Shown here: positions 8,293-26,082 of the stretch, one piece after another
How the letters are laid out: the number at the start of each line of letters is the position of its first letter
How positions within the stretch are numbered: position 1 is the first letter of the stretch
Assembly: GCA_004293655.1 (NCBI GenBank)
Contig: RDZZ01000046.1
Location: forward strand, 1-46,797
Source: Polaromonas sp.
Lineage (GTDB): Bacteria > Pseudomonadota > Gammaproteobacteria > Burkholderiales > Burkholderiaceae_C
DNA: 46,797 nucleotides
Reading direction: 5' to 3'
Notes under the pieces: generated by a model
The model's input: the letters and a program-made list of their open reading frames with translations, nothing else
Told to the model about the DNA's origin: nothing
Databases searched by the model: none
Program-made: the position numbers and the translations under genes

Positions 8293-8361
8293 TATCAAGG
8301 TCTAAAACCGGCCCTGCAGCAATATCTACAAGGATTGTATGCTATCTAAATAATAGCAAAT
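8293..8361 (-). repeat. Dispersed GCTA-N9-TAGC repeat, copy B
   Basis: On the minus strand: ATTTGCTA, nine bases, TAGCAT, then TGCTGCAGGGCCGGTTTTAG. It fills most of the gap between queG and the convergent SWIM gene. It is next to the downstream end of the DUF4132-MoxR operon. Confidence 0.75.
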
Positions 8362-8378
8362 AGACCCATGAATCAGGA

Positions 8379-10451
8379 TCACCCACCACCATGCAACCCC
8401 ACCACCACCCGCGCATCCTCATGCAACTGTGCCAAGGCCGCCATTCTCATCAACGCCGGGGCCAGGCACGCATCTTTGTGCATGGCCTGTGCGGTTAACG
8501 TGGCTCCGAGAAGCGTTTTCAGCGCATCGGCCAGCGCAAACAGGCTTTGCGCGGTGAGCTGGCGTATGGTCTGGTTGCAGTCGGTGCTCCAGCTGGCGGG
8601 CAGTTGCATCAAACCGTGGTGCAGCAAAGTGGCCAGCACGTCGCGCAGGCTGGCCAATGCTTCTACGACCGGGTCACTTGCTTGATCGGGCAAAAAACCG
8701 AGCGGCAGGCGGGCAAGTGCGTCGCTGTTCTGGATTGAAGCGGCGGCAAAGTCGGGCACGACGATGCTGCTGGCGGCCACTGCCCAGGGTTCGATCACGG
8801 GCAGGCCGCCTGACCAGTGCAGCAGACCGGCTAGATGACTGACTGGCCCCTGTTTGCCTGACAGTGCATCGGCCAGCGCGGCCAGGGCGTGGCGGTTGTG
8901 GCTCTCAAAGCTGCGTTTTAGCAGCATGGGCTGGTCATCGGCGTCATGCAGCACGGCCATCAGGGCTTGTGCGTGCGGGTCGTAACTCGGGGTTTCGATT
9001 CTTGCGGGTGTGAACACGACAAACCGCTGGGCTGCATGGCGCGGCAGGATTTGTGCTGTGGGCTGGGCCTGCTGGGCTGTAGCCAGGGCGCGCACGCTGT
9101 CGTAACGCAGTGGCGCACCAAACTGCATCCAGTCGGGCACCTGCGGCAACACGCTGTTGTGCGAACTTCGGCTTTTGGCGAGTTTGAGGCTGCCGTCGGG
9201 CAATCTGCGGGCTTGCCGGGCCAGCAGCTGACCCCGGCTCAGGGCTTCAAGCAGGACGCCAGGGGCCAGGCGTTCTGATGCACGGGTGCTGATCTCGTCC
9301 GCCGTTGTACCGTCTGCCACCTTCCATTCATGATTCAAGACAAGTGCCGTGCCGGTGTCGGTATCTGCCAGCAGCAGGCGGGTGCGGCGGTTGGGGCCGT
9401 CGCGCACCGTGCGGGCGCCCAGGCAGACCAGGCGCAGGCGATCCAGTTCGGTCTCACCGGGTTCGGCCAGACCCAGCACGGCTCTGGCGTTGCCGGGCAA
9501 GACCCCGGCGTGCAGGCGCAGCGCCAGCTCTGCCACCAGCGCCAGGCCGTCTGCTGGCTGATATGTAGCACTGCGTGTTGACCAGGCACCGCACCAGTGC
9601 TCAAAATCTTGCAGAAGATAGACCAGCCAGGTGGCGTTGAGGGCACGGCTGGCATCCAGTGCATGGCTTAAAGCCTGGGCGATGGGCGCTGCACCGGCGC
9701 TGACACCGTGAAGAAGCAGCGCTTCAACCAGCGCCTGCCAGGGCGCAGTGTCCAGCACCAGACGCGTGCCGTCACTGCCCAGACGCACGACCTGTGCTGA
9801 CTGAGTTGCCTCTTCCCTGTCAGCCTGCCGAAAAGCCCAGACGCCCAGCGCCACGTGTTCACAGGCCGCAGCAGCAATGCAGTCGCAACGGGCTGCCTCC
9901 AGCGCAGCACCCGCCCAGAAACGCACTGTGGCCGATGGCAGGCGCGCGGTGTCGCAAGGCTCGCCGCTGGCAGTTCGGCGAATGGTGATGGAGATACCGG
10001 CATCGCGCGCCAGCGCGGCCTTGGCCAGCAAGGCGGCGGGAATGACCCGTGCCAGCATGTCATCGCTGGCCTGGCCGGGTGATGCGGCTAAAGCAGGTTG
10101 AGCCGAACCGGCAGATGCCCCGCCAGACGAATCGCCAGAATCGCCAGCCTGTGCAGCGTCCCGCACCTCTTGCTGCAGCTTTTCCCGGTAAGCCAGCGCC
10201 ACAATGATGCGATGCCTGCAAACCGTCGCCGCACCACAACTGCAGCGCACCTGCCCGATGGGCGTGGCAGCAGGCCAGACGGTGTTGATGCCGTCGCTGA
10301 ACGTGGCTTCAAGCGTGCCATCTGCACCCAGCGCCAGTTGCGGGCGGTAACCGCCTTGCAGCTCACGCACAGCGCGTTTGACCACACCCGCGTTGGCGGC
10401 TTGCGCCAGCGCCTCGGGGCTGAGGTGAAGCAAATCCTGACGTGGATTCAT
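8379..10451 (-). CDS. Double SWIM zinc-finger protein (YehQ-like)
   Basis: Cytosolic protein of 690 residues, last gene of the DUF4132-MoxR operon. Two SWIM-type C-x-C-x(n)-C-x-H motifs are visible: C70/C72/C78/H80 in RCSCGAATVCRH and C189/C191/C197/H199 in RCDCIAAAACEH. A low-complexity Gly/Ser/Ala linker lies between them at about 100-130. SWIM domains bind zinc and are associated with DNA or protein binding. The remaining roughly 480 residues show no motif I recognise. Size, double finger and position after a VWA gene match what I recall of E. coli YehQ. The ATG is seven bases after the VWA stop, with GGGG inside the end of the VWA frame as a likely ribosome site. Confidence 0.8.
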   Translation of the reverse strand: MNPRQDLLHLSPEALAQAANAGVVKRAVRELQGGYRPQLALGADGTLEATFSDGINTVWPAATPIGQVRCSCGAATVCRHRIIVALAYREKLQQEVRDAAQAGDSGDSSGGASAGSAQPALAASPGQASDDMLARVIPAALLAKAALARDAGISITIRRTASGEPCDTARLPSATVRFWAGAALEAARCDCIAAAACEHVALGVWAFRQADREEATQSAQVVRLGSDGTRLVLDTAPWQALVEALLLHGVSAGAAPIAQALSHALDASRALNATWLVYLLQDFEHWCGAWSTRSATYQPADGLALVAELALRLHAGVLPGNARAVLGLAEPGETELDRLRLVCLGARTVRDGPNRRTRLLLADTDTGTALVLNHEWKVADGTTADEISTRASERLAPGVLLEALSRGQLLARQARRLPDGSLKLAKSRSSHNSVLPQVPDWMQFGAPLRYDSVRALATAQQAQPTAQILPRHAAQRFVVFTPARIETPSYDPHAQALMAVLHDADDQPMLLKRSFESHNRHALAALADALSGKQGPVSHLAGLLHWSGGLPVIEPWAVAASSIVVPDFAAASIQNSDALARLPLGFLPDQASDPVVEALASLRDVLATLLHHGLMQLPASWSTDCNQTIRQLTAQSLFALADALKTLLGATLTAQAMHKDACLAPALMRMAALAQLHEDARVVVGLHGGG

Positions 10452-10458
10452 ACAGCGA

Positions 10459-11458
10459 TTACCCCAGCTTTCCGGCCAGCCATGCGGCCAGCTGGCCCGG
10501 CGTCATCGCGCCGATGTGCGCGCCCACGTCGGCCAGTTTGCCTGCCAGGGTGCGGTCGTAGTCGGGGTTGGCTTTCTCATCGAGTGCGGCCAGCCCCAAA
10601 ACCTGGGTGCCTTGGGCGCACAGGGCGCGTACCTGGCTGACCAGCACATGCTCGGCTGCGCCTTCATAAAAGTCGCTGATGATGACCACGATGGCGCGGC
10701 GTGGCGCTTCAATCTGCCCGGCGGCGTACACCACGGCCTTGCCGATGTCGGTGCCGCCGCCCAGTTGCACAGCCATCAGCACCTGCACCGGGTCTTGCAC
10801 GCTGTCGGTCAAATCGACCACCTCGGTGTCAAACGCCACCAGATGGGTCTTGACACCGGGCAAGGCCCACAGGCATGAGGCCGTGACCGCCGAATGAATC
10901 ACGCTGGAGACCATGCTGCCGCTCTGGTCCACCAGCAGAAAAACCTGCCACGGCTGCAGCGAGCGGCGGGTGTTGACATAAAACAGCGGCTTTTCAATCA
11001 GCAGGCGCTGGCGGCGCTGGTCGTAGTGCTTCAGGTTGCGCTGCAGGGTTTCGGGTGCGCATCACGGCTTGCAGCAGCGCGGGGTTGGGTGTGGCGCGGG
11101 CCAGCACTTCGGGGTTGGTCACAACCTCGTCAATGCCGTAACGCTCGATGGCGTCGCGCTCCAGCCTTTCAATGGTTTCTTTGGGGAACAGCTCGTGAAT
11201 CTCGTTAATCCATTCAGGCACGGTCAGTTGTGAAGCACCCGCGCCGCCGTGGCGGTCCAGCCGGTCTGCGGCATCACCGCCACCATCACTCTGGCCGTCG
11301 GGTGCATCACGGCCATAAAGCCAGGCCAGGGCGCGGTCCATCGCCATGGCCTGCATGTCGCCCGCGCTGCCCAGGCCACCTGCCAAAGGCTGCTGCGCGG
11401 CTTCACCGAGCAACAAACGCCAGCGTTCTACTGCAGACAGCACGATGACTGGTTTCAT
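10459..11458 (-). pseudogene. VWA-domain protein (YehP-like), broken by an internal deletion and frame change
   Basis: The N-terminal part starts at an ATG (11458) overlapping the DUF5682 stop. It reads VERWRLLLGEAAQQ, DRALAWLYGRDAP, TVPEWINEIHELFPKETIER and IDEVVTNPEVLARA, then ends in a new frame and stops at 10994. The second part, in another frame, resumes at about 11052 with TLQRNLKHYDQRR and VFLLVDQSGSMVSSVIHSA (the MIDAS motif D-x-S-G-S), then THLVAFDTEVVDLTD and ISDFYEG, ending at 10459. Compared with E. coli YehP as I remember it, about 55 codons between the halves are missing and the frame changes at about 11050-11060. A TGA directly upstream in the second frame rules out simple restart with the whole VWA fold. 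An intact version would be the partner of the MoxR ATPase encoded upstream in the operon. Confidence 0.85.
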
Positions 11459-13785
11459 GCCTGAATCTCCAGCGCACGCGCCCATGCCAGTGCCTGCGCC
11501 TCGATGCGTTTGGCGTCCAGCAGTACCCGGCTGCCGGTGTGCAGTGACAGCAGGCCCGATTGTTCGTTGGCCGACAGACCCAGCAAGGCCGCCACGCGCT
11601 GGGCCAGCGCGCCACGCTCACGCGGCGGAAACCAGGCAAAAGCGGCGCGCAACTGCGGCAGCGCGACCAGAAAATCATCACTGCCCATACCTTCAAGCGC
11701 CTCATGCACTGCGCCCACGATGGCGTCTGACTCGGTGGCCAGCACGCGCGCGCAGCAAAACAGGCCGTATAAAAAATCGCCCAGCTCGTCACGCGGCGGC
11801 ACGGCGCGTACCAAGGCCAAAATTTGCTGACGCCCTTGTTCGCCCAATGCGTCATGCACATACACCACGGCCAGGGCCGCACCCCGCAAAGCCGGTGGAG
11901 ACAAAGAACTGCGTGCCAGACGCAGCAAGGTCGCCAGCGTGGCATCACGACTCAAACCGGAGGCGGCCTCCAGTTGCAGGCGCAGCAGGCTGTCAAAAAT
12001 GCTGACGGCCGCCACGTCGGCTTGCATCTGTTGGGCTTGTGAGCCTTGGCGAGCTTCCAGCAGCCAAAGGATTCGGGCAGCCAGCACCGACAAGGCCCGC
12101 GCGAGCAGGGCGCGTGTGTTCTGACCCCAGAAACCGGCCTGCACCACCTGCTGCAACAAGCCGGCGGCTTTTGCCAGCGCGGCCAGGTCATGCGCGGCAG
12201 GAATCGCCGCTTCAAGCTGCTGGCCCAGCGCATCGCCCATGTCGAGCAAACCGGCACGCACGGCTTTTAGCAGGCAGCTGGTGGCCTGGGCCACATCGCC
12301 CTGGCCTTGGGCAATGAGTTGGGTCAGGCGGTTTCTGGCCGCTGACTCAAGCGTCGCGCCGTATGCGGCGGCTTCGATCAGGTTGGGAAACCAGCGATCA
12401 CTTTTGATCAGTGACCAGTGTTCCTCAAAATTCAGTGCGGCAGGCAGCTGGCGGGCGGCATGCGGGGCGCGGGTTTCGACAAGTCTTGCGCCTTCCAGAC
12501 CAATCAGTTGCAACTGCCACAAGGTGTGGGCGCGTGGCAGGTCAGCGGCGCGGCGGCGGTCAATGATGATGTTTTGCCTGGCCTTGCCGGTTTGATGTGG
12601 CGATTGCGCAGCCAGCTCACACTGCACCAGCCGTGCCGCCACGTCATGCACCAGCGGCGGCAAAGGCGTGTCGGTGTGCAGCGTACCGCCGCCCTCGCCT
12701 GTCAAAGCCAGCAAGGCTTCACGCAAAACCGGGTGGTGCCGGTCACCCAGCAAACCCTGGCTGGCCCACGGGGCAGGCGCGTCCAGTGCTTCCTTGATCA
12801 CTGTGGATTGCAGCGCATCCAGAATGTCGCCGCGCAAGGGCTGGGCATGGCCGCGCAGTTGCGCCAGAGATTGCTGGGCGCAGCGCATGGCAATCATTTC
12901 AGCCGTCGGAAAAGCCACATCCTTTGCACGCAAACGCCGGGTGATGCACTGCAGCGCCTGCTCGCCCGCAGCTTTCAGCCCCGATTGCCACACCCACTGG
13001 TAAAAAATGGGCGACTGCATGCCCGAGCTGTAGCCGCCCAGCGCATCGACCTGCCGGTATTCATAAGGCACCAGATAACAACCGGCGGCCCGCACATCAG
13101 TTGGCGCGGGCGACACGGGTTCTGGCGCGGTCGGCTGCAGCGGCCAGAGCTGTTCAATCGCCCGTTTGTGCCAGCCGCCGCAAATCACCAGCACATCGCC
13201 TGTGACTTGCTGCTGCGCCCAGGCCACCCAGCGCGCCATGTGTTGTTCACGCGCCTGGTCTTGGGGTGTACCGGGGTCGTCGCCGCGCAGCTCATCAAAA
13301 TAAAGGTCCAGGCGCTGCTGCAGGGCGGCGTCGTTCAGCTCACCTTCAAACAGGTGATCCCACAGGGCATTGCTGCCATCACAGCCAAAGCGCTGACACA
13401 TCAGCGCCAGCACCTCGGCATAGCGTGAGTGGGGCTGCAAACCGCTTTTATGCTCATGTGCGTCCGCAATCGCCCGGTATTGCCAGTGCGGCAAGTCTAT
13501 AAACCTCAGCAGCGCGCCGATTTGATGGGCGCTGCGCAGGGCCACCCATTCAGGCGAACAGTCCAGAAAAGGAAACCAGCACTGCGCCGGGCTTTGGCCT
13601 TCATTGGCGTAGCTGTACAGGGCAACGGGCAGCGTGTGCTCAAGCAACAGCTCAGCCATGCGCGGGTTGAAGTCGCCTGGGCCTTCTATCAACACAGCGG
13701 CAGGTTTGTCGCGTTCTATGACCCGCTGGATCAGCCGGGCACACGCTGGGCTGTGGTGGCGCACACCGATGACGCGAACGGTCAT
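11455..13785 (-). CDS. DUF5682 protein (YehM-like), possible TIKI/EreA-type metal hydrolase
   Basis: Cytosolic protein of 776 residues; the start at 13785 is preferred because family homology begins at MTVRVIGVRHHSPACARL and AAAAGG lies upstream. The first about 220 residues contain GVRH (7-10), an acidic IEGPGDF (E34 at 33-39), CSPEWVALRSA, and VICGGWHKR (GGWH 203-206). Two G-x-x-H motifs and an early Glu resemble the TIKI/TraB/EreA/ChaN superfamily of putative metal-dependent hydrolases; this is my inference, not an established assignment. The remainder is Leu/Ala-rich and helical. It follows the MoxR gene after a gap holding repeat copy C, and its TGA overlaps the ATG of the VWA gene (ATGA). 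Confidence 0.8.
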   Translation of the reverse strand: MTVRVIGVRHHSPACARLIQRVIERDKPAAVLIEGPGDFNPRMAELLLEHTLPVALYSYANEGQSPAQCWFPFLDCSPEWVALRSAHQIGALLRFIDLPHWQYRAIADAHEHKSGLQPHSRYAEVLALMCQRFGCDGSNALWDHLFEGELNDAALQQRLDLYFDELRGDDPGTPQDQAREQHMARWVAWAQQQVTGDVLVICGGWHKRAIEQLWPLQPTAPEPVSPAPTDVRAAGCYLVPYEYRQVDALGGYSSGMQSPIFYQWVWQSGLKAAGEQALQCITRRLRAKDVAFPTAEMIAMRCAQQSLAQLRGHAQPLRGDILDALQSTVIKEALDAPAPWASQGLLGDRHHPVLREALLALTGEGGGTLHTDTPLPPLVHDVAARLVQCELAAQSPHQTGKARQNIIIDRRRAADLPRAHTLWQLQLIGLEGARLVETRAPHAARQLPAALNFEEHWSLIKSDRWFPNLIEAAAYGATLESAARNRLTQLIAQGQGDVAQATSCLLKAVRAGLLDMGDALGQQLEAAIPAAHDLAALAKAAGLLQQVVQAGFWGQNTRALLARALSVLAARILWLLEARQGSQAQQMQADVAAVSIFDSLLRLQLEAASGLSRDATLATLLRLARSSLSPPALRGAALAVVYVHDALGEQGRQQILALVRAVPPRDELGDFLYGLFCCARVLATESDAIVGAVHEALEGMGSDDFLVALPQLRAAFAWFPPRERGALAQRVAALLGLSANEQSGLLSLHTGSRVLLDAKRIEAQALAWARALEIQA

Positions 13786-13796
13786 TTTTTCATGCC

Positions 13797-13854
13797 TTTT
13801 TTGGCCCCTGCGCAATTGCAGCGGACATGAACAGCTATCAAATACGTAGCAAAT
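13797..13854 (-). repeat. Dispersed GCTA-N9-TAGC repeat, copy C
   Basis: On the minus strand: AATTTGCTA, nine bases, TAGCTG, then TGCGCAGGGGCCAAAAAAGG. It fills the junction between the MoxR and DUF5682 genes, and its A-rich tail provides the AAAAAAGG that serves as a ribosome-binding sequence for DUF5682. Confidence 0.75.
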
Positions 13855-13872
13855 TCAGACATCACAATGCCC

Positions 13873-14958
13873 TCAGGGCAACAAATGCCGCGCTGCATAA
13901 AAGTCGCGCCAGTGCTCGCCCTGGCGTTTGGCGGCCTTGTTTTCGATGTAACGGCGTATCTTTTTAAGGTCATCGGGGTTGTCTTTGGCGGCAGCACCTG
14001 CCAGCGCTTCCACGATGTCTGATGGCTGGCCCGCATCACCACGCAGATAGTGGCCCCGCAGCGCCACGCTGTAGGCCACGCTCACAGCTTCAGCCGTGCT
14101 GACCACGGTGGACAGGCGCTCGCTGGCCGCGCCGTCGCGGTCAACGCCCTGGCGCAGCTCGCGGAAGGTGGTGACCAGCACTTCCAGCACCTCGGCAGCG
14201 GGCTGCAATTTGAGGCCGTCGTTGGCCAAAAGGCGTGCGACTTCGCTTTGCACCAGCGCCAGCTCCTGGTCGTAATCGGCAATCGGAAAGACGGTTTCAA
14301 ATGAAAAGCGGCGTTTCAGCGCGGCTGACATCTCGTTGACACCCCGGTCACGGGTGTTGGCGGTGGCGATCAGGTTAAAACCCGGCGCGGCAAACACCGC
14401 GTTGTCACCGGGCAGCTCGGGCACCATCAACAGCCGTTCAGACAATATCGAGAGCAAACCGTCCTGCACTTCAGGCGGGCAGCGGGTGATCTCTTCAAAC
14501 CGCACAATGCGCCCGTCCTGCATGGCGCGGTACAACGCCGACGGTACCAGTGCGCGCGTGCTGGGGCCTTCAGCCAGCAGCAGCGCGTAGTTCCAGCCGT
14601 ATTTGATCTGGTCTTCCGTCGTGGCGGCGCTGCCCTGGATCGTCAGCAAGCTGGAGCCACAAATGGCGGACGCCAGCAACTCTGACAGCAGACTTTTGGC
14701 CGTGCCCGGCTCGCCCACCAGCAGCAAGGCACGGTTGGAGGCCAGCGTGACCATGGCGCGTTCAATCAGGCTGGGTGCGCAGACAATTTTGGTGCGAATG
14801 TCCTTGTCACCCACAATAAAACGCCGCACCGCCTTCATCGACAACTGCCAGCCTGGCGGTTTGGGGTCACGGTCAGACTTTTTCAGCCGCGCCAGCTCAT
14901 CGGCGTAAAGATGCTCGGCGGGCGGGCGCTGCTGGCGTGTGGGGGGCGCTGGGGTCAT
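13873..14958 (-). CDS. MoxR-family AAA+ ATPase (YehL-like)
   Basis: AAA+ ATPase of 361 residues. Walker A is GEPGTAKS at 82-89, Walker B IVRFEE at 151-156, sensor 1 is ATANTRD at 198-204, and the arginine-finger region is ALKRRF at 213-218. The segment ITRCPPEVQDGLLSILSER is the usual MoxR stretch after Walker B. MoxR ATPases act as chaperones or remodelling machines, usually with a VWA-domain partner encoded alongside. Here that partner gene is two genes downstream and broken. The YehL subfamily assignment rests on gene context (DUF4132, DUF5682, SWIM). Its ATG overlaps the stop of the third DUF4132 gene (ATGA), which indicates translational coupling. Confidence 0.92.
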   Translation of the reverse strand: MTPAPPTRQQRPPAEHLYADELARLKKSDRDPKPPGWQLSMKAVRRFIVGDKDIRTKIVCAPSLIERAMVTLASNRALLLVGEPGTAKSLLSELLASAICGSSLLTIQGSAATTEDQIKYGWNYALLLAEGPSTRALVPSALYRAMQDGRIVRFEEITRCPPEVQDGLLSILSERLLMVPELPGDNAVFAAPGFNLIATANTRDRGVNEMSAALKRRFSFETVFPIADYDQELALVQSEVARLLANDGLKLQPAAEVLEVLVTTFRELRQGVDRDGAASERLSTVVSTAEAVSVAYSVALRGHYLRGDAGQPSDIVEALAGAAAKDNPDDLKKIRRYIENKAAKRQGEHWRDFYAARHLLP

Positions 14959-17900
14959 GGTGCAGTCATGATGTTGTAGGGGTTGAGCAGGCTCAGGTCA
15001 CGCAGGACTTCGCTGATAAAAACAGTGTCCAGGCTGTCAAAGGTAGCGGGTTGCTGTGCCACGCCTTCAGTATGGCGCAGCAGCCACAGCTCGCCGATGT
15101 CCTGGCGCGGCTCCATCTGGCCGCCGCCTATGAAAATGCCGGGTGAAATGCTCAGGCTGACTTCCAGGCCGTCACGGCTCCTGCGGCTGTAGTCACAAAT
15201 CATGCCGCCGTCCTGCGGGCTGCCGCGCTCCCAGCCCCTGGGCTGCAGACTCATGATGGCGCCTGACGCAACAGACTGGCCCTCGAAGCGTTTGAGGATG
15301 TGCTGTTTCTGCTCGTCCGGCGTCAGCGCATACGTCTCGCGGCCCAGCTGTTTGAAGGGTTGCAAAATTTCGTAGTCGGCAAACACCTGCGAAAACCTGG
15401 CCAGCACGCTGGGGTTCATCTCCAGCACATGGGGGATGCCCAGCACCGCGTCGTCTGCCCGTTCGACCCATTCATCGCCGCCGTCGGCCAGCGTCCAGTC
15501 TTCGGCAATGCGCAGCGCCTGCACCATCTGGTCACCCTCATAACGCCCCCACACCAGCCGCGCGGCAAGATAACGCATCAGCGGGTGATCGATAAAAAAG
15601 CGTTTGAATTCAGCCAGCGGCCAGCGCCTGGCATTGACCATGGCGCGCTCCATACGCGTGATCTGCAAGCTGGCCAGCGTGCGCGCGTCCTTGCGCAGCA
15701 GTTTGAGCCGGTCTGCCGTGGCCTTGGCCCGCACTGCGTCGTCACTTTTATTCGGTTTGGGCAGGTCTTTCAGGCGCGTGCCTTTGCTGTCCATCACCAC
15801 GGGTTTGAGTTCTTCGTCAAAAGCCAGGGTGAATTTGCGCGGGCCAAAGTCCAGCTCGAAAGCGGCTTCTTGATCCAGGCCAAGAGCCGGAACCAGCCGG
15901 TCGGCAAGCTCTTCAAGGCTTAAACCGCGCGTTTCGGCGGCACCCTGGATCATCACACCCGCACGTTCTTGCAGGATTTTGTGTTTGCTTTTGGCGGCAA
16001 TCACACTCAAAAGCATCAGCGCCACATCGCTGCCGATGGTTTTGAGCATGTGCATGGCCTCGGTGGCGCGGGCACGCAGGGCGTAGTTGGCCGCCCAGTC
16101 ATTGATGCGGGTGAACAGTCGGCGGGCGGTTTCGTCGTCACCGAGCAAACCCAGGCAAGTAAAGGCCCAGCGGTGTTTACCCGGCCTTTCGGCTTCGTCC
16201 CAGGCTTCGTAAATGTCCCAGGCAAACTCGGCCAGACTGGCGCGGGTGCAACTTTGTTTGACGATGTCCAGGCCCGCATAAGGCACACCGGGCTGCTCCA
16301 GCGCCAGCATGCGGCCGATATGTTCCATTGCCACCACGGGCAGCGCGCCGCCGCTGAGCAGCTCGGGCCGGCGAAATGAGGCGGCGACAAAAAAATCGGG
16401 CAACTCGGGCATCACGCCAGGCAGCAGAAAGATCGGGTCGGTGGTCAGCAGCGCCTCAAGCGCGGCGGGCATGGCACCGCAATAGATACCAGCCACCTCA
16501 CGCGCCAGATCGGCATGGCCTTTTTCTGCCAGCCAGGTGATCGCGTGGCGTGCATCGTCACGACCCGCGCTGTATTGAGTTGCGAAGGCCTGCGGCAAGG
16601 CCTTGAACAGCACAGTGCGCGGGAAGCGCTCGATCCAGCGGCCAGCACTTTCCTTGTGCAGCCTGACGTTGCGCAGGCCGTGCAGCATGTGATTGACCAG
16701 GCCAGGGCTATCGACCATGGACGCCAGCCACGGTGCCTTGCCGTCATGGGTGGTCAAAAAAGCCACGGTGCCACGAAAAGCCGCCGTGCCGTAGCTGGCC
16801 AGCAGCGCGGGAATGACACGGGTAGTTGTCCAATCGCGGCTAGCCATGCCGGGGTAAGCGTTGAACAGGGCCAGCCGGGCCGGTTCGGGCGCTCGCAAGA
16901 GGTCATCAAAATCGACACGGAAGACGGCCTCGTCCACATCACCGGGCTGCAGCGGCTGGCCGGCCAGCAAACGCTGTGAAACCGACGGTCTGAGTCCCAG
17001 AGTTCTGGGGAAACCCCATTCGTCGCTTTCAGGCACACGCCAAGTGCTGGGTGTGTATTTGGCAGCCTCTTCCTGGCTGCTCTGGTGCCACACCGTGGGC
17101 TGCGGCCAGGCGAGCGTCTCGGGTGTGGTGATCACAGGCACATCAAAAGCGGGCAACTCGCCCGGCCTGTCGGCGCGCAGCCAGGGCGGCTCACGCAGCA
17201 GCGGCGGCAGGTTGTCTGGCGCGGCTACTTCGCGGTGAAGCGCAGCCCACTGGGTTTCAAACCGTTTGCGGGACGACGGCTCCAGCGCTGCCAGCGTGCC
17301 CGGCAAGGCGTCCGGGTGCTGCAGGGCCAAGCGGATTGTCCAGTTTTCGGTAGCGCGATTGCGTCCGGCCAGACTGTGTTCAATCGCAGTTTTGAGCACG
17401 GCAGCAGGGAATTGCGCCGCCAGTTTTTCAATCGCCGAGCGCACCTTGGGCACGGCGATGCCAGTCATCAGCAGGGCTGGCATTTGGGGAACGTGCAGGC
17501 GCACAAGCACATCAAGCAGCATGTTCAGTGCGACCTTGTCCTCATGCTTGATGGCACGCGCCAGCAGCGGCGATATTGCCTCCAGGGCGGCATCCTGGTG
17601 CAGGTGGACTTGCAGCAAAAGCATGGAAAGCTTTGATTTTTGCGTGATGCGAGACGTGTGCATCATGTCAATGTGTTGCTCTACGTAGCGAGCAAACACA
17701 GAGGCAGGCAAAACGCAGTCCCTCAGAAGGTAGCCGTGCAGGTCGGCGTTCTGCTCGGCATGCTGGGTCAGCCACTCCTGAGCCCACTCGCCAATATGTG
17801 CAAACAGGTGGGCACAGAAACGGTGCATCTCAGCACTCTGGCTTTTTGCGGCTTTGGCAACAGCAAGTGCCTTCTCGCAGTCTTCATCACTGGCGCAGGC

Positions 17901-18479
17901 AATGGCCTGGCGCAGCGGTGCCAGCAGCGTGCGCAACCAGTCCTGTTTGCCCGATTCAAACCAGCGAGACTTCAGCTTGTCAGACCAGGCGACCAGCTGC
18001 AGCGCCACATCCAGCGTAAAAAACAGGCCATGCCGCGCCAGGCAAATACGTGTCACCCAGTCAAGCGGTTTGTCATAACCCGTTTTATCACGCTCTTTTT
18101 CAGTATGTTCCAGTCCGTTTTGCACGCCCTTGCGTGCCTGAAAGTCAATTTGCTCGCTGCTGGCAGCCTGGGTCAAAAGTTCTAGCCATAGCGCAAGGTC
18201 GGGCAAGCCATGAGCGGCTTTGTGCGTGAACACGGCGGCACCAGCAGACCCCACGTAAACCCATGGAGCGGCCTTGAGAAAATCATCCAGAGAAAAGCTT
18301 GACCACGAGTCGTCACGGTCGCGCAGCTTTGGCACTCTGGCCAGCAACGATTCAAGCGATTCCATCTTCGGCGCATGAATGCCCCGCACAGCGGGAAGCT
18401 GTTTGCGCCACTCGGGTTTCCACTGAAAACCGGCGGTCAGTGTGGTGATGGTTGCTGTTGTGTGCTCTTTTTGCACCAT
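14955..18479 (-). CDS. DUF4132 protein, third tandem copy (1174 residues, no WGR domain)
   Basis: Large helical-repeat protein. It lacks the WGR-like domain of the first copy but keeps GFQWKPEWRKQLPAVRGIHA at 17-36, which corresponds to residues 129-148 of that copy. It then follows the same architecture: NLPPLLREPPWL, a TVLFKALPQAFATQ segment, LGLLGDDETARRL, the DUF4132 core DRLVPALGLDQE with LDFGPRKFTLAFDEELKP and RLKDLPKPNKSDD, and the conserved tail EILQPFKQLGRETYALT followed by RGWERGSPQDGG. A strong AAGGGGA precedes the ATG at 18479. It is coupled to the MoxR gene by an ATGA overlap. The function is unknown; DUF4132 proteins such as E. coli YehI and MolR are poorly characterised. Confidence 0.85.
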   Translation of the reverse strand: MVQKEHTTATITTLTAGFQWKPEWRKQLPAVRGIHAPKMESLESLLARVPKLRDRDDSWSSFSLDDFLKAAPWVYVGSAGAAVFTHKAAHGLPDLALWLELLTQAASSEQIDFQARKGVQNGLEHTEKERDKTGYDKPLDWVTRICLARHGLFFTLDVALQLVAWSDKLKSRWFESGKQDWLRTLLAPLRQAIACASDEDCEKALAVAKAAKSQSAEMHRFCAHLFAHIGEWAQEWLTQHAEQNADLHGYLLRDCVLPASVFARYVEQHIDMMHTSRITQKSKLSMLLLQVHLHQDAALEAISPLLARAIKHEDKVALNMLLDVLVRLHVPQMPALLMTGIAVPKVRSAIEKLAAQFPAAVLKTAIEHSLAGRNRATENWTIRLALQHPDALPGTLAALEPSSRKRFETQWAALHREVAAPDNLPPLLREPPWLRADRPGELPAFDVPVITTPETLAWPQPTVWHQSSQEEAAKYTPSTWRVPESDEWGFPRTLGLRPSVSQRLLAGQPLQPGDVDEAVFRVDFDDLLRAPEPARLALFNAYPGMASRDWTTTRVIPALLASYGTAAFRGTVAFLTTHDGKAPWLASMVDSPGLVNHMLHGLRNVRLHKESAGRWIERFPRTVLFKALPQAFATQYSAGRDDARHAITWLAEKGHADLAREVAGIYCGAMPAALEALLTTDPIFLLPGVMPELPDFFVAASFRRPELLSGGALPVVAMEHIGRMLALEQPGVPYAGLDIVKQSCTRASLAEFAWDIYEAWDEAERPGKHRWAFTCLGLLGDDETARRLFTRINDWAANYALRARATEAMHMLKTIGSDVALMLLSVIAAKSKHKILQERAGVMIQGAAETRGLSLEELADRLVPALGLDQEAAFELDFGPRKFTLAFDEELKPVVMDSKGTRLKDLPKPNKSDDAVRAKATADRLKLLRKDARTLASLQITRMERAMVNARRWPLAEFKRFFIDHPLMRYLAARLVWGRYEGDQMVQALRIAEDWTLADGGDEWVERADDAVLGIPHVLEMNPSVLARFSQVFADYEILQPFKQLGRETYALTPDEQKQHILKRFEGQSVASGAIMSLQPRGWERGSPQDGGMICDYSRRSRDGLEVSLSISPGIFIGGGQMEPRQDIGELWLLRHTEGVAQQPATFDSLDTVFISEVLRDLSLLNPYNIMTAP

Positions 18480-18491
18480 GAATCCCCTTTT

Positions 18492-18560
18492 AATTGCTAC
18501 TTGATGGATAGCTGGTTATGACCGATGCACTTGCACGGCAGGCTTACAAGGCTTAAAAAA
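18492..18560 (+). repeat. Dispersed GCTA-N9-TAGC repeat, copy D
   Basis: AATTGCTA, nine bases, TAGCTG, then CCGATGCACTTGCACGG (itself an imperfect inverted repeat), AGGCTTA and an A-rich tail. It occupies most of the 103-base junction between the second and third DUF4132 genes, in the orientation opposite to transcription. Confidence 0.8.
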
Positions 18561-18582
18561 TACCGCTGCAGCTCTTTGGGAG

Positions 18583-20901
18583 TCAGTTTTTCGCCAGCGC
18601 CAGCAACGCCAGATCCCGCAAAATTTCACTGACCAGAATCGTGTCCAGACTCCCAAATTTCAACTGTTCACTCGCGCCGTAGCGGTTGCGCTCAGTCAAG
18701 GTGACCGTAGGGATTTTTTGCCGGGGTTCGTGGGTGGGGTTGCCCATGATGGTGCCAGGTGTCAGTTGCACCGTGACCTGGTGCTCTTCGCCCAGCGGTT
18801 TGCGGTATTCACCCAGCCAGCCGCCGCCATGCTCCATACCCTCCCAGCCGCGATTGGCCAGGCCCATCACGCTGGCGGTGTTGAGCACGCGGCTGGCAAA
18901 ACGGGTCAGCACGCTGGTTTGTGCTTCCTCGGGGGTCAGCGTGTAGGTTTCGCGGCCCAGTTGTTTGAAGGGTTGCAGGATGTCGTAGTCGGCAAAAATC
19001 TGGCCAAAAGCGGCTGCCACCTCCAGCGGCATTTCAAGCCGGTGCGTCAGGCCGACAAACACATCGGCTGGCAATTCAAACAGGCTGTCGTCGGCATCGG
19101 CCAGCGTCCAGTCCTCGGCAATGCGAAAGTTCTGTTGCAGTTTGCCGTCGGGCTGGTCGGTGTCATACACGCCCCAGACCAGGCAGGCAGCCAGGTGGCG
19201 CATGACGGGGTGGCCCAGCAGCAGTGCGCTGAAATCGGCTGCCGTCCAGCGGCGGCGCAGCACCATGGCCGATTCCAGCCGCAGCAACTGCAGGCTGGCG
19301 ACGGTTTTGGCGTCTTTCTTGATCTTTTTGAAACGGTCGACCGCTTCGCTGGCCAGGCGGCTGTTGTCGCCCTGGTTGGGTTTGGGCAGGTCTTTCAGGC
19401 GCACGCCTTCGGCGTTCTTGACGATGGGTTTGAGGGTTTCGTCAAAAGCGATGCTGAACTGGCGCGGCCCAAAGTCCAGCACCAGTGCGCTGCTGCCTCC
19501 CCCGTCCTCGTCCAGACCCAGGCGCGGCACCAGCCGGTCGGCCAGCTCTTCGGTGGTGAAACCGCGTGCATCGGCCAGGTCCTTGATCTTTTCCCGGGCT
19601 TTTTGCTGCAACGGTTTGTATTTGATCTTGGCGGCAATACCGTTGAGGTGCATCAGCGCCACGTCGGAGCCAATGGCCACCAGCATGTCCAGCCCGGTCA
19701 CGGCGCGGGCGGTGGCTGACTGGCCCGGCCACTCGCGCACCAGCGGCGTCAGGCGGCGGGCGGTTTCGTCGTCACCGAGCAGGCCCAGCGCGGTGAAAGC
19801 CCAGTTGTAGCTGGCCGGTGTGCCGCAATAGAGCCACACCTCAAACAAATCCCAGACAAAAGCGGCCAGGCTGGCACGGTTGCAGGTCTGGCGCACGATG
19901 TCCAGACCGGCGTAAGGCGCGTCAATTTTGCTGATGGCCAGCATCAGGCCAATGTGTTCAACCGCTTCCAGCGGCAGCGGCTGACCATTGAGCAGTGTGG
20001 GCCGGTGAAATTTGGCTGCATCAAAAAAGTCTGGCAGTTTGGGCATGCGGCCCGGCAGCACCAGCAGCGGGTCGGCGCTGAGCAGCACCTGCAATGCATC
20101 CGTCATACCCTGGCCATAGGCTGCAGCGACTTCACGGGCCTGTGCCTCGCCGCCGTTGGCTGCCAGCCAGCGCAGGCCGTGCCTGGCGTTGTCACGCGCC
20201 TGGCTGTGGCTGGCCTGAAAAGCCAGCGGCAGCGCCTTGAACAGCACGGTGCGGGCATGGGCCAGAATCCATTTCTGGGCAACCGTCTTCAGGGTTTTGC
20301 TGTGGCGCAGGGTGTGCAGAAAAGGCTCGACCAGTTGCGGGCTGTCCACCTTGGGCGTGTTGTAGTAGCCGGATGCTGGCTGGCTCTGGAACAGCCGCAC
20401 CAGGCCAGGAATGGCCACCACACCGTAGTCGCCAAACATCTTGCGTATCACGTCGCCACTGACCTGCCAGCTCAGCCATTCGGTGGCCGGATAACTGTTC
20501 CACAGCAACAGCCGGGCCGGCTCGGGCACCAGCAGCACATCGCTCATGAAGGCACGGCAGTCGTCCATCACGTCACCGGGCAACAGGCCCTGCCCTTGCT
20601 GCAGGCGCGCTATGCCGGCCGTGGTCAGGCGAAGGCGCTGCGGAAACACGTCGGCCACGGCAGCAGCGGGGTTGTATCTGTCCTTGTAATGCCTGAACTT
20701 TTCCAGCTCCTCTTTTGTCCAGTGCAGCTTGTCTTGCGTCGGGATGGTGGCCACATCCAGCACGGGCAGCGGGTTCTGGCGCTTTTTGGCGAGCCAGGGC
20801 GGGTTGAGCAGCAATGGCGGCAGGGAAACCAGCGTCTCGCTGCTGGTTTCAGAATTGACGGAGGCGTCTGTCTGTTGGTTGTTTGTCATGTTTGAAAGCA
20901 T
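18583..20901 (-). CDS. DUF4132 protein, second tandem copy (short form, 772 residues)
   Basis: Corresponds to the C-terminal roughly 750 residues of the first copy (from about residue 490). It starts with LPPLLLNPPWLAKKRQNPLP, matching LPEVLRNPPWLGKQRQQDLP there. It contains GQGLLPGDV, ARTVLFKALPLAFQ, ALGLLGDDETARRL, DRLVPRLGLDED, LDFGPRQFSIAFDETLKP, RLKDLPKPNQGD and DILQPFKQLGRETYTLT. The WGR-like domain and the N-terminal helical half are absent, with no sign of a decayed remnant upstream. The start may be ATG 20901 or ATG 20889; neither has a good Shine-Dalgarno. It lies between copies D and E of the dispersed repeat. Confidence 0.85.
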   Translation of the reverse strand: MLSNMTNNQQTDASVNSETSSETLVSLPPLLLNPPWLAKKRQNPLPVLDVATIPTQDKLHWTKEELEKFRHYKDRYNPAAAVADVFPQRLRLTTAGIARLQQGQGLLPGDVMDDCRAFMSDVLLVPEPARLLLWNSYPATEWLSWQVSGDVIRKMFGDYGVVAIPGLVRLFQSQPASGYYNTPKVDSPQLVEPFLHTLRHSKTLKTVAQKWILAHARTVLFKALPLAFQASHSQARDNARHGLRWLAANGGEAQAREVAAAYGQGMTDALQVLLSADPLLVLPGRMPKLPDFFDAAKFHRPTLLNGQPLPLEAVEHIGLMLAISKIDAPYAGLDIVRQTCNRASLAAFVWDLFEVWLYCGTPASYNWAFTALGLLGDDETARRLTPLVREWPGQSATARAVTGLDMLVAIGSDVALMHLNGIAAKIKYKPLQQKAREKIKDLADARGFTTEELADRLVPRLGLDEDGGGSSALVLDFGPRQFSIAFDETLKPIVKNAEGVRLKDLPKPNQGDNSRLASEAVDRFKKIKKDAKTVASLQLLRLESAMVLRRRWTAADFSALLLGHPVMRHLAACLVWGVYDTDQPDGKLQQNFRIAEDWTLADADDSLFELPADVFVGLTHRLEMPLEVAAAFGQIFADYDILQPFKQLGRETYTLTPEEAQTSVLTRFASRVLNTASVMGLANRGWEGMEHGGGWLGEYRKPLGEEHQVTVQLTPGTIMGNPTHEPRQKIPTVTLTERNRYGASEQLKFGSLDTILVSEILRDLALLALAKN

Positions 20902-20903
20902 CC

Positions 20904-20971
20904 ATTTGCTACAACTTAGATAGCTGCTTATACCCGCTGCACGTGCGCGGCCGGCCTAAAACGCTTGAAAT
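20904..20971 (+). repeat. Dispersed GCTA-N9-TAGC repeat, copy E
   Basis: ATTTGCTA, nine bases, TAGCTGCTTATACCCGCTGC, then GTGCGCGGCCGGCCTAAAAC. It fills the 79-base junction between the first and second DUF4132 genes in the same orientation as copy D. Confidence 0.8.
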
Positions 20972-20980
20972 TTACAACAT

Positions 20981-23900
20981 TCAGTCTTTGACGACGGCCA
21001 GCAGCTCCAGATCACGCAAGATTTCGCTGATCACCACCGGATGCAACTGGTCAAAGGTCAGCAGGCTGTTTGGGTCGTGGCTGCCACGCCTCATCAGGGT
21101 GACGGCGGGCAGTTTCTGTTTGGGCTCGCAGGATATGTCGCCCACAGTGGTGCCAGGGTCAAGCTGCACATCCACCTGCAGATGGCCTTCAATCAGTTTG
21201 CTGAACTCGCCCACCCAGCCACCATCCTGCGCCTGGCCGCGCTCCCAGCCACGGTTGACCAGACCCAGCACGCTGCCGGTGGCGACCTGTTTGTCTTTAA
21301 AGCGCGTCAGGGTGCTGAGGCCCTGCTCTTCTGCCGTGAGGCTGTAGGTTTCGCGGCCCAGCTGTTTGAAGGGCTGCAAAATTTCATAGTCGGCAAAGAT
21401 CTGGCCAAAGGCGGCCAGGTTTGTTTTGGGCATTTCAAGAATGTGTGAAATGCCGACGCTGCTGTTTTCTGTTTGTTCAGGCAATTCATAAAGCGTGTCG
21501 TCTGCATCAGCAAGACTCCAGTCTTCGGCCACGCGGAAGTTGCTCACCAGTTTGCCTGCTTCGTAAACGCCCCAGACCAGTCGCGCAGCCAGATGGCGCA
21601 TCAGCGGGTGTTCAATAAAAAACAGCTTGAAATCAGCCACGGGCCAGCGGCGGCGCGCCACCATGGCCATCTCCAGCCGGCTGACCTGCTGGCTGGCAAT
21701 GGCTTTGGCGTCTTTTTTGATCTGTTTGAAACTGGCCGTGGCGGCTTCGGCCAGGGTGGCGTCATCACTTTTGAGCGGTTTGGGCAAATCCTTCAGGCGC
21801 ACGCCCTGCGCGTCCTTGACCAGTGGTTTCAGGGTTTCGTCAAAACCGACAAAAAACCGGCGCTGGCCAAAGTCCAGCACCAGCGTGCCGGTGTCATCCA
21901 GGCCCAGATCGGGCACCAGCCGGTCGGCCAGCGCTTCGGCGGTAAAACCACGCGCTTCAGCCACCGCGCTGATTTTTTCTTTTGCGCGCTCCTGCAGCGC
22001 CTTGAACTTGACCTTGCCAGCAATCGCGTTGAGGTGCATCAGCGCCACATCCGTGCCAATGGCGGCCAGCAAATCCAGACCGGTCACGGCACGTGCATGG
22101 GCAGATTCGCCCGGCCACAGGCGGATGCGCGGCGCCAGGCGGCGGGCGGTTTCGTCGTCGCCCAGCAAACCCAGCGCGGTAAAGGCCCAGCCCTCTTTGG
22201 ACGGTGAGCCGGCGGTAGTCCAGGCGTCAAACACATCCCAGGCAAATTCGGCCAGGCTGGCGGGTGTGCAGACTTCCTTGACGATTTGCAGACCAGGGTA
22301 CGGCGCCTCCAGCGGGCTGATGGTCAACATGCTGGCGATGTGTTCAACCGCACTGGCGGGCAGAGCCAGGCCGCTTTCGCGCAGCTCTGGCCGACGCAGC
22401 GCGCCAGGCACAAAAAAGGTCGGCAGTTTGGGCATCTTGCCGGGCAAAACCAGCAGCGGGTTGACATGGATCAGGGCCTCCAGCGCAGCGGGCATGGCAC
22501 CGCCATACGCCTGTGCCACCTCACGCGCCAACACATCAAAACCATTGCTGCACAACCAGCGTATGCCGTGGCGGGCGTTGTCGCGGGACGGGCTGGGTTT
22601 AGGGTGAAAAGCTGCTGGCAGGGCTTTGAACAACACCGTGCGCGGATGGTCACGCAGCCAGAGCTGGGCCTGTGCCCTGGCTTTTTTCAGATTGCTGGCG
22701 ATATGCAGCACGGCATCGACCAGTTGCGGGCTGTCGATTCTTTCAATCAGGGGCAAACCTTTTTCTGGCGAGAACTGCAGACAGGCCAGCACACCTGGCA
22801 AAGCCGCCAGGCCGTAGTCAGCCAACAGCAGGCGAATCGCGCCTTCGTTGCTGTCCCACAGACACCACTGGTTGACCGGGTAGCTGTTCCATAAGGCCAG
22901 GCGATATTTTTCCGGCACGACCAGTAGCAAGTTAGGTGACTGATAGTTGTATGAGCGGGTAGCCACATCACCAGGCAGCAAGCCCTGCCCAGCCAGCAGA
23001 CGCTGCACGCCAGCGGCATGGATGGCCAGATCGTTAGGGAAACCATCGGTAAAACCAGGCTGACGAAGGTACGCCCTGACTTCATACCTTCTGGCCTGGG
23101 CCAGCTCCTGCGCTGTCCAGTTCATGATTTCGGGCGTGGGCAACGTGGCCACCTCAAAGGCAGGCAAGTCCTGCTGGCGCTGCTTGCCCAGCCAGGGCGG
23201 GTTGCGCAAGACCTCTGGCAGACTGGCAGCCGGGGCTTGTTCACCTTGCAGACTGGCCAGGCGGGCTTCAAAGCGACTGCGCACGTCGGGCTCGACAGCG
23301 GCCAGGGCGGTTTTGAGCGCATCGGCTTCGCGCAGAGCCAGCCGCACCGTCCAGCCTTCAACCGTGCTGTTACGGCTGCTGGCGCTGTAGTCGATAGCGG
23401 ACTTGAGCACGGCAGCGGAATACTGCGGCACCAGCTTTTCAAGTGCGTGGCGGGTTTCGTGGTTTTCAATGCCACTGACCAGCAGCGGCAGCAGCGCCGG
23501 TACATGCATGCGAACCAGCAACTCAAGTGCCTCAACGGCTGTGGCCTTGCTGCCAGTTGACTGCGACAGCACGCAGGCCAGGACATCAAACGCGGCCTCG
23601 CCGTGCAGGTGGATCTGCAGGTAAAGCGCCGGGCGCAGGTAGCTGATGTGAGTTCTGTTTGTCTGGATGTACTGCAAAAAGCGCGGGGCGGACAAGGCGC
23701 AATCCTTCAGCAGCATACGGTCGTCCTGGGCTTGCTGATCCAGACATTGAGTTGCCCAGTCGCCAAGATGGGCAAACAGATGGGCGCAGACACGTTTTTT
23801 CTCGAAACTCTGTTCACGCAAAACCAGCGCAGCCTGCAAGGCCAGGGCATAGTCTGCCTCGTTGGCGCAGGCAACTGCCTGGCGCAGCGGTTCCAGCAGG

Positions 23901-24691
23901 TCAGACATGTCGCTGCGCCGTGTCAAGGCAGGTGCCCAGAAGTTGAGCGCCACCTCCATCGCAAAAGGCAGGCCGTGCAAGCCAATGCACACCTGCGTCA
24001 CCCAGCGCAAGGAGTGGTGTTGCCAGTTGCTGCAAGACGCCTGCGCCATGAGTTCAAGCCAGTATTCAAAATCTGCCTGATCCAGCGCCTCGCGGGTGAT
24101 GCGCTGGCGTGATTCTGCTTCGCTCCAGTACACCCATGGGCGTCCGGCGGCCTGGGTCAGCGCGGCAAAACTTTGCGCCATCCAGTTGTTGCCGCCGGGC
24201 AGCACGATCAGCTTTTCCAACAATGTGCTGACCGGCTCCAGAGGTGGCGCATGAATGCCCCGCACAATGGGCAAGGCATCACGCCATTCTTTTTTCCACT
24301 GGAACCCCCCGCTGGGCCAGATGATGAGTTGGGGTTGTGCAAGAGGTGCATTGTCCCGAGCCAGAACATCAGGCTTGGGAGCCGCAGGACTTGATGGCAC
24401 TGATGCAATGCTGGCTTGGGCCACGTTTGCTGTGGCGACAGGCACTGCCTCAGCAGGCTTTTGCACGGGTTGTTGCGTTGGCAAGCTGCTGACCAGCGCA
24501 TAACCCTTGCCAGTCTTTTCTTTGATGAGTTTGTCACGCTCTCGGGTGGCTGCAGCAGCGTCAGAAAGTGTCTTGGTTTTTCTCTGGCCTGCAGTGCCTA
24601 TGCGCCCAAACAACACAGTCAGATCAGGCCCTGAAACCTCAACCTGCCAGAATTTGCTGGACCCGCCCTCAACCAATTCATATCGCTGCAT
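20981..24691 (-). CDS. DUF4132 protein with N-terminal WGR-like domain, first gene of operon (1236 residues)
   Basis: Residues 1-70 look like a WGR domain: YELVEGGSSKFWQVEVSG, then LFGRIGTAGQRKTK with FGR in place of the eponymous WGR, then ERDKLIKEKTGKGY. A Pro/Ala/Val-rich linker runs to about 120. A helical region starts at GFQWKKEWRDALPIVRGIHA (129-148). The half shared with the second copy begins near 490 and holds LGLLGDDETARRL (840-852), DRLVPDLGLD (923-932), LKDLPKP (966-972) and DILQPFKQLGRETYSLT near the end. WGR domains occur in PARPs and bacterial regulators such as MolR and are thought to bind nucleic acid or protein. GAGAGGG lies about ten bases before the ATG. This is probably the entry gene of a seven-gene operon. 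Confidence 0.87.
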   Translation of the reverse strand: MQRYELVEGGSSKFWQVEVSGPDLTVLFGRIGTAGQRKTKTLSDAAAATRERDKLIKEKTGKGYALVSSLPTQQPVQKPAEAVPVATANVAQASIASVPSSPAAPKPDVLARDNAPLAQPQLIIWPSGGFQWKKEWRDALPIVRGIHAPPLEPVSTLLEKLIVLPGGNNWMAQSFAALTQAAGRPWVYWSEAESRQRITREALDQADFEYWLELMAQASCSNWQHHSLRWVTQVCIGLHGLPFAMEVALNFWAPALTRRSDMSDLLEPLRQAVACANEADYALALQAALVLREQSFEKKRVCAHLFAHLGDWATQCLDQQAQDDRMLLKDCALSAPRFLQYIQTNRTHISYLRPALYLQIHLHGEAAFDVLACVLSQSTGSKATAVEALELLVRMHVPALLPLLVSGIENHETRHALEKLVPQYSAAVLKSAIDYSASSRNSTVEGWTVRLALREADALKTALAAVEPDVRSRFEARLASLQGEQAPAASLPEVLRNPPWLGKQRQQDLPAFEVATLPTPEIMNWTAQELAQARRYEVRAYLRQPGFTDGFPNDLAIHAAGVQRLLAGQGLLPGDVATRSYNYQSPNLLLVVPEKYRLALWNSYPVNQWCLWDSNEGAIRLLLADYGLAALPGVLACLQFSPEKGLPLIERIDSPQLVDAVLHIASNLKKARAQAQLWLRDHPRTVLFKALPAAFHPKPSPSRDNARHGIRWLCSNGFDVLAREVAQAYGGAMPAALEALIHVNPLLVLPGKMPKLPTFFVPGALRRPELRESGLALPASAVEHIASMLTISPLEAPYPGLQIVKEVCTPASLAEFAWDVFDAWTTAGSPSKEGWAFTALGLLGDDETARRLAPRIRLWPGESAHARAVTGLDLLAAIGTDVALMHLNAIAGKVKFKALQERAKEKISAVAEARGFTAEALADRLVPDLGLDDTGTLVLDFGQRRFFVGFDETLKPLVKDAQGVRLKDLPKPLKSDDATLAEAATASFKQIKKDAKAIASQQVSRLEMAMVARRRWPVADFKLFFIEHPLMRHLAARLVWGVYEAGKLVSNFRVAEDWSLADADDTLYELPEQTENSSVGISHILEMPKTNLAAFGQIFADYEILQPFKQLGRETYSLTAEEQGLSTLTRFKDKQVATGSVLGLVNRGWERGQAQDGGWVGEFSKLIEGHLQVDVQLDPGTTVGDISCEPKQKLPAVTLMRRGSHDPNSLLTFDQLHPVVISEILRDLELLAVVKD

Positions 24692-24845
24692 ATGTCTAGC
24701 CCTCTCTAAAAGTCTGTTTCACCGCTGTGTGGTGTCAAAGCACGCGGTGGCGTGTGTTGTGAACTCAAGGAGCTGATTTTCTCAGAGTGATGCCCATGTC
24801 TGGGTGATGAGTACAAAGCCTTGTTGCCGTTCACGCTCTACATCC

Positions 24846-25963: not shown

Positions 25964-26082
25964 TGCACAAGAATAACCGCAAAAAAGTGTCGATCCGGGT
26001 TTGCCCTTATGTGTAATCCACAAGTGGCACGTGCCGTGCATACGGGTACCATTTCGGTTGTTTTTACTTGAAAGACCAGAAA

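Follow-up and report, generated by a model that had tools for sequence, protein, structure and literature searches.

A contig of Polaromonas sp. (GenBank assembly GCA_004293655.1, contig RDZZ01000046.1, positions 1 to 46,797; this whole stretch is referred to below as the window) carries seven coding regions, all on the minus strand, running from 24691 down to 8379. The seven genes are one conserved, real module that combines a MoxR-type AAA+ ATPase and a VWA protein with DUF4132, DUF5682 and SWIM proteins. A module of this uncharacterised kind is already known and is present in E. coli; new are the probable assignment of DUF5682 to the Tiki superfamily, the fusion link between DUF5682 and VWA, the exchange of DUF4132 and DUF5691, and the insertion site.

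The first gene of the operon (20981..24691) encodes a WGR-DUF4132 protein of 1236 amino acids (Pfam E-values 6e-15 for WGR and 1.7e-53 for DUF4132). Two further DUF4132 proteins follow, of 772 amino acids (18583..20901; 1.8e-49) and 1174 amino acids (14955..18479; 6.8e-52), and then a MoxR-type AAA+ ATPase of the YehL subfamily (13873..14958; 361 amino acids), assigned from Pfam AAA_5 (1e-38), identity to YehL and its place in a tree. The DUF5682/YehM gene (11455..13815; Pfam DUF5682 6.5e-95), whose likely start codon is an ATG at about 13785, encodes a putatively Tiki-like N-terminal domain and a C-terminal helical part. Next come a broken VWA_CoxE (YehP) gene (10459..11485; Pfam VWA_CoxE 1.4e-40 on its second piece) and, by motif and family alignment, the gene for a YehQ-like protein of 690 amino acids with two CxCx5CxH SWIM-type motifs (8379..10451). 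Coordinates and, for all families but SWIM, Pfam agree with an earlier note on this DNA, which had read seven same-strand genes of these families, except that the VWA gene is in two pieces. The third DUF4132 gene and the MoxR gene overlap by 4 nucleotides (nt; ATGA, 14955-14958), the DUF5682 and VWA genes share the same overlap if VWA starts at the ATG at 11458, and the remaining intergenic gaps are about 7-103 nt by the coordinates, so the two ATGA overlaps and otherwise small gaps described in that note are present. Scans for sigma-70 promoters and terminators gave no excess over shuffled sequence.

The order of the genes had also been equated with E. coli yehI-yehL-yehM-yehP-yehQ, and this order is found in the K-12 genome. 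There the molR region carries yehI-yehK-yehL-yehM-yehP-yehQ, of the same families in the same order, with the WGR-family gene yehF and the pseudogene yehH upstream. The window DUF5682 and MoxR proteins are 37% and 59% identical to their E. coli counterparts, the latter being YehL. In contrast to K-12, there are three DUF4132 genes in the window, the first of them fused to WGR, and the VWA gene is broken. The window has no space for a counterpart of yehK, the overlap between the third DUF4132 gene and MoxR being 4 nt.

The seven gene products and the broken VWA gene

The protein profiles used here exclude family pieces shorter than 60% of the median length (rows kept: MoxR 100 of 101, DUF5682 97 of 105, VWA 85 of 95, SWIM 61 of 81, DUF4132 95 of 117). 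The row sets hold repeats: L001 and L003 are the window again, and L004/L007 and L005/L006 are pairs. The P-loop GxPGTxKS/T, present in the window MoxR protein as GEPGTAKS, is kept in 99 of the 100 MoxR rows, a few of which are repeats of one gene. In a search of PDB sequences the best match of this protein is midasin. The YehL subfamily is one of seven MoxR subfamilies according to the available part of PMC3893208. In a tree of 96 MoxR rows the window pairs with a single relative, L021 (support 100/90), inside a 34-row DUF4132-type set (100/97) that holds E. coli YehL (L008); modules of the DUF5691 type, described below, form a separate clade. The earlier note had likened the ATPase and its neighbour to known MoxR-VWA pairs, and both families are indeed present, with the VWA gene of the window broken. 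All three elements of the metal ion-dependent adhesion site (MIDAS) occur in 75 of 85 VWA rows.

The AlphaFold2 model of the 772-residue DUF4132 protein (P0005; predicted local distance difference test, pLDDT, 92.4) is mostly helical, with strands in its C-terminal part. Among 40 DUF4132 proteins, 9 match Pfam HEAT_2 at E<=1, the best with 2.7e-14. No PDB sequence matched DUF4132 at E<=1, and the matches in a PDB fold search with the model were generic helical repeats with E above 0.001 throughout. Of 29 open reading frames (ORFs) with WGR, 26 are DUF4132 ORFs. The YehQ-like protein of the window falls below the Pfam SWIM cut-off (E 3.9) and is not among the 46 of 55 YehQ-type rows that match Pfam SWIM at E<=1. 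The four ligands of the first CxCx5CxH motif are nevertheless invariant in 55 of 55 aligned rows, the window included, in favour of the zinc finger that had been proposed for the last gene.

The VWA gene had been taken as intact, which it is not. Its pieces lie in different frames, 11485-10994 and then a stop-to-stop frame at 11061-10459, and residues from about 130 to 182 of an intact relative of 381 amino acids (some 50 residues) are absent. Against both L021 and L022 the missing stretch amounts to 167 nt, with a junction overlap of 6 or 8 nt; 167 is not divisible by three, and the gene is frameshifted. All three MIDAS elements are kept in the second piece. In the present assembly the window operon is thus without an intact VWA cofactor, and the VWA step has probably been lost from this genome, provided that the gap does not stem from faulty assembly. 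Taken with the frameshift and the loss of about 167 nt, the whole operon could be a decaying, non-functional copy, a possible but doubtful reading given that the other six genes are open along their full length and that the short junction overlap equally fits an assembly fault in a source genome that is a draft of 174 contigs, 79% complete. Five other loci (L016, L018, L045, L067 and L074) likewise have DUF5682 or VWA genes spread over two or more frames, so that breakage or sequencing faults in this module are also seen elsewhere.

Conservation, layouts and mobility of the module

Genomes were scanned with an alignment of 11 MoxR proteins, and the best 80 of at least 592 confirmed places were kept; these loci are ranked by similarity to the window MoxR protein and are not a random sample. 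They were annotated with custom hidden Markov models (HMMs), whose seeds were window sequences and annotated genes of plasmids and E. coli. MoxR was found in all 80, DUF5682 in 79, VWA in 74, a YehQ-type SWIM protein in 70 and DUF4132 in 65. All five families occur together in 60 loci: 23 of 26 in Pseudomonadota, 15 of 19 in Actinomycetota, 16 of 23 in Bacillota, 2 of 2 in Planctomycetota, 1 of 2 each in Verrucomicrobiota and Spirochaetota, 1 of 1 in Bacteroidota and 1 of 2 unassigned, with 0 of 1 each in Myxococcota, Melainabacteria and Armatimonadota. Co-occurrence therefore reaches beyond close relatives into several phyla, and its absence, named beforehand in the earlier note as contrary to its reading, is ruled out. 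Some of the missing families are due to contig ends (e.g. L077, L085), others to other layouts (e.g. L061, L090).

Generally, the order MoxR-DUF5682-VWA-SWIM is conserved on one strand, and the window follows it with its VWA gene as two pieces. DUF4132 lies upstream of MoxR in 46 of the 80 loci, downstream of it in 17 and to either side in 2; the other 15 lack it, and loci that have it give one to four hits each. Spacing, measured from a stop codon to the HMM start of the next gene, is at most 150 nt for 72 of 79 MoxR to DUF5682 pairs, 64 of 69 unfused DUF5682 to VWA pairs, 68 of 69 VWA to SWIM pairs and 45 of 48 DUF4132 to MoxR pairs. In E. coli the yehL-Q stretch was matched in 5301 of 5426 genomes, over at least 80% of its length in 5162. 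A module whose yeh genes stand in nearly all E. coli genomes examined, and which is spread across several bacterial phyla, has been little studied. Eleven clusters of flanking ORFs recur in at least three of the loci used, the largest in 16 and the next in 5; by eye, these two resemble signalling and transporter families. No module locus was confirmed on viral contigs. Separately, MoxR, DUF5682 and VWA were seen on L019 (MT835988.1), a phage scaffold of faecal origin that is unverified and perhaps a bacterial contig. In four Clostridium-type loci (L056, L059, L064 and L065) a small protein of 94-111 amino acids adjoins the module.

A sister layout, SWIM-DUF5691-MoxR-DUF5682 with VWA, occurs on plasmids of Deinococcus, Rhizobium, Hymenobacter and Methylosinus; the Hymenobacter and Methylosinus VWA genes were found by HMM, and that of Methylosinus is split. 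It shares the MoxR, DUF5682 and VWA families with the window, and its SWIM proteins are homologous (hhalign 2.5e-8), but DUF5691 replaces DUF4132, SWIM comes first and the MoxR proteins form their own clade. Compared as profiles, DUF5691 and DUF4132 reach only E 0.13 in hhalign, with just four DUF5691 rows, and the DUF5691 Pfam model is matched by 1 of 40 DUF4132 proteins, at 5e-4. Among 281 genomes of the window's class, matches over the cut-off were found to DUF5682 in nine, DUF5691 in seven and DUF4132 in five. All seven DUF5691 genomes are among the nine with DUF5682 (hypergeometric 1.4e-12). Three of the five DUF4132 genomes carry DUF5682, namely the window genome (by design), G174, where the two genes are close together, and G277. 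The two congeners of the window genome with DUF5682 have the DUF5691 layout, and their MoxR proteins group with that type. The exchange of DUF4132 and DUF5691 points to an interchangeable, perhaps target-choosing, part.

The module is an insertion. It is bordered on the left by a reading frame containing queG (6632..8212, plus strand) and on the right by a Mem_trans membrane transport gene (25052..26041, minus strand), both assigned by Pfam, and these flanking genes are adjacent in 11 of 15 same-genus relatives, 10-171 nt apart by match ends, two of the 11 cases being cut by contig ends. In three relatives they lie 3.2-5.8 kb apart and in one on different contigs; in G031, from another family, the distance is 11 nt. 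The G+C fraction of the insert, 0.615, lies between those of the flanks (0.627 and 0.578). Of 41 genomes, 3 match DUF5682, the window's own among them, and all three belong to the 25 genomes of the genus. The MoxR protein is matched by 40 plasmid records at E<=1e-30, several of them chromosome-sized. In the three congeners with the wider gaps (L156, L157 and L158) the interval holds, by eye, cargo unrelated to the module. One has a TRAP-type transporter set along with genes for catabolism, another an ABC transporter for amino acids, and the third a cyclase next to a globin-like gene. The interval behaves as an insertion hotspot. Near the edges of the insert lie the two copies of a 13-bp direct repeat (8348..8360 and 25014..25026, both on the plus strand). 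These are held within copies of a short GCTAT...AATAATAGC-like element at 8341-8360 and 25007-25026, of which a third copy lies at 27835.

DUF5682 and the Tiki/TraB/ChaN superfamily

The N-terminal domain of DUF5682 is probably near the Tiki/TraB/ChaN superfamily, as suggested by three agreeing lines below threshold, from Pfam, profile and fold comparison. When 76 such domains were compared with Pfam at a loose limit of E<=10, the ChaN/Tiki model was the most frequent match after DUF5682 itself (23 of 76, best 0.0063), with the TraB/PrgY/GumN model matched by 6 (best 0.013) and the DUF5694 model by 5 (best 0.0022). Aligned by hhalign to the TraB profile, the domain gives E 1.8e-4 with a probability of 49%, over the RExxM...GxxH part; as controls, TraB against ChaN gives 9.1e-6 (83%) and eight unrelated pairs 0.098 or worse. 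In a Foldseek search of BFVD (viral structures) with the AlphaFold2 model (pLDDT 89.7), a TraB-family protein ranks first (probability 1.00, TMt 0.45, E 3.8e-3). Fold matches in the PDB are mostly generic helical repeats, and the best PDB sequence match has an E of only 0.089.

Consistent with such a relationship, the aligned R, M, G and H of RExxM and GxxH, which we take to be motifs of the Tiki/TraB/ChaN superfamily, are invariant in the 76 DUF5682 rows, RExxM being present as an exact string in 75; the TraB alignment shows the two motifs in part. DUF5682 differs from the superfamily in its long C-terminal helical part and its place in a MoxR operon, and Pfam gives no function for it. The earlier note had called DUF5682 a putative hydrolase; the remote match to the Tiki superfamily argues in that direction, and a hydrolase activity may be predicted from these similarities.

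DUF5682 and VWA are joined in a single ORF in four of the best 80 loci and one plasmid locus (L014, L035, L050, L053 and L084), which ties DUF5682 to the adaptor of the ATPase. The fusion in L050 is less certain, as that locus also has a DUF5682 piece in a second frame. A probable Tiki-type domain that is at times fused to a VWA adaptor offers a concrete activity to assay.

Proposed mechanism and alternative roles

The best reading, to which we give about an even chance, is a joint one: the window module is a copy of the Yeh module that has moved horizontally, and in such modules a MoxR/VWA ring and a Tiki-type hydrolase act on targets that are held by proteins with HEAT repeats, WGR and SWIM. 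YehL would assemble into an AAA+ ring, on which the VWA protein would dock, its MIDAS metal site gripping an acidic patch of the target as in the NorQ/NorD proposal. DUF5682, probably a hydrolase of the Tiki superfamily and sometimes fused to VWA, would act on the target opened by the ring. The target would be selected or held by the HEAT-repeat DUF4132 proteins (DUF5691 being the alternative), WGR and SWIM, possibly on nucleic acid. That the ATPase/VWA pair remodels the DUF4132 proteins in particular, as the earlier note had proposed, is a hypothesis. NorQ/NorD, CoxD/CoxE and RavA/ViaA are not known to have Tiki-like, DUF4132 or SWIM partners. As far as the available parts of the sources go, all three pairs place a MoxR ATPase beside a VWA protein, as here, but belong to other MoxR subfamilies; for NorQ/NorD a VWA finger is modelled in the pore and the MIDAS is required for target activity (PMC9976466, in part). 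The accessible portion of PMC7824862 describes a MoxR-VWA pair of jumbo phages in which VWA is fused to a metallopeptidase domain, likewise an ATPase/VWA pair coupled to a hydrolase, but in a phage system. It is rather unlikely, in our estimate, that the module represents a distinct class of hydrolase machine driven by ATP, in which a MoxR/VWA ring feeds targets, chosen by exchangeable receptors (DUF4132 or DUF5691), WGR and SWIM, to a Tiki-type enzyme at times fused to the VWA adaptor. If this were true, many bacteria, among them E. coli, would have a Tiki-type enzyme working under the control of an AAA+ ATPase.

Several observations weigh against the ring-and-hydrolase reading. No match of DUF5682 to the Tiki superfamily lies above any curated threshold, and Foldseek searches of the PDB and BFVD with its model gave nothing at E<=0.001. 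The TraB-family match in BFVD has a root-mean-square deviation of 10.5 and a TMq of 0.15, hhalign against ChaN gives only E 0.0037 with a probability of 9%, and in the Pfam comparison the exonuclease C-terminal domain, likely a chance family, equals DUF5694 (5 of 76, best 0.0072). Where the canonical Walker B motif has Asp-Glu, 100 of 100 YehL-type rows, the window included, have Glu-Glu (mostly RFEEIT); this looks like a subfamily trait, and with Glu for the usual Asp the ATPase activity is not assured. Within the class, G277 has its DUF4132 gene apart from its DUF5691-type module, and G111 and G149 carry DUF4132 without DUF5682. The step from SWIM to a downstream DUF4132 gene is within 150 nt in 0 of 14 cases, a lack of tightness that arises because the HMM begins deep inside those DUF4132 proteins. 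Finally, the window's own VWA gene is broken.

Other roles have been weighed against this mechanism. Of the open-licence matches listed in PMC, none has a title or abstract on the function of yeh-module genes; DUF4132 is mentioned without a function in the available parts of PMC9334617 and PMC11674859, and yehQ is named in lists only in those of PMC6442406 and PMC9501238. The module could be a chaperone for metal or cofactor insertion like CoxD/CoxE or NorQ/NorD, maturing a metalloenzyme, perhaps of molybdenum, with DUF5682 and DUF4132 as accessory proteins. The CoxE family of the window VWA piece, the NorQ/NorD and CoxD precedents as partly available, and a title, seen in a reference list, that names molR as essential to molybdate utilisation by E. 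coli all speak for such a role, which is nonetheless unlikely: the flanks examined, read by eye, show no recurring client enzyme, and moeA and moeB of Deinococcus are unchanged, in the portion of the source at hand, while DUF4132 and WGR genes are induced. The available text of PMC7159879 makes no mention of WGR, SWIM, DUF4132, TraB, MolR or molybdate. An equally small chance is given to a DNA-damage machine, in which WGR and SWIM would bind damaged DNA and the ring would clear proteins under SOS control. For a stress role, which the earlier note had thought possible, there are lineage-specific hints: molR is given as LexA-regulated in the accessible parts of two papers, a LexA box with one mismatch lies just upstream of E. 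coli yehF, and Deinococcus DUF4132 and WGR genes rise upon DdrO depletion (from a source available in part). WGR is moreover concentrated in DUF4132 ORFs, as described above, but is present in only 20 of the best 80 loci. The region upstream of the first gene was scanned with boxes of three clade styles (CTGTN8ACAG, allowing one mismatch, and two more without mismatches). No LexA-like box was shared by the loci; apart from the window, 7 loci had single, scattered hits, with nine loci having the first gene at an edge and start codons being uncertain. The E. coli scan began at yehH and so missed the yehF box, which limits this negative. In the window a weak box with one mismatch lies upstream of the first gene (24725..24740, minus strand), and LexA-like boxes are about as frequent there as chance would give (26 against 20.6 expected).

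Defence against phages or plasmids, also raised in the earlier note, is very improbable. The patchy spread and mobility of the module would suit it, and an Iodobacter plasmid carries the module next to a type I restriction system, while two other plasmids have a gene for a DNA methylase or a PDDEXK nuclease in its vicinity. However, PADLOC models were unmatched by 8 of 8 window sequences, and among 102 flanking ORFs (of 122 picked, without control flanks) no PADLOC family was found in more than one; where the G+C content is high, some of them are probably not real genes. By eye, the other cargo found at this insertion site seems to be metabolic or regulatory, and the near-core status of yehL-Q in E. 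coli is unlike that of a swapped defence system. As a side observation, one flanking ORF of the L021-L100 set matches PADLOC WGR_XIII with E 4.3e-116, and HEAT-ARM_XIII was also matched once; a link between the WGR/HEAT proteins of another system and the WGR-DUF4132 proteins is possible.

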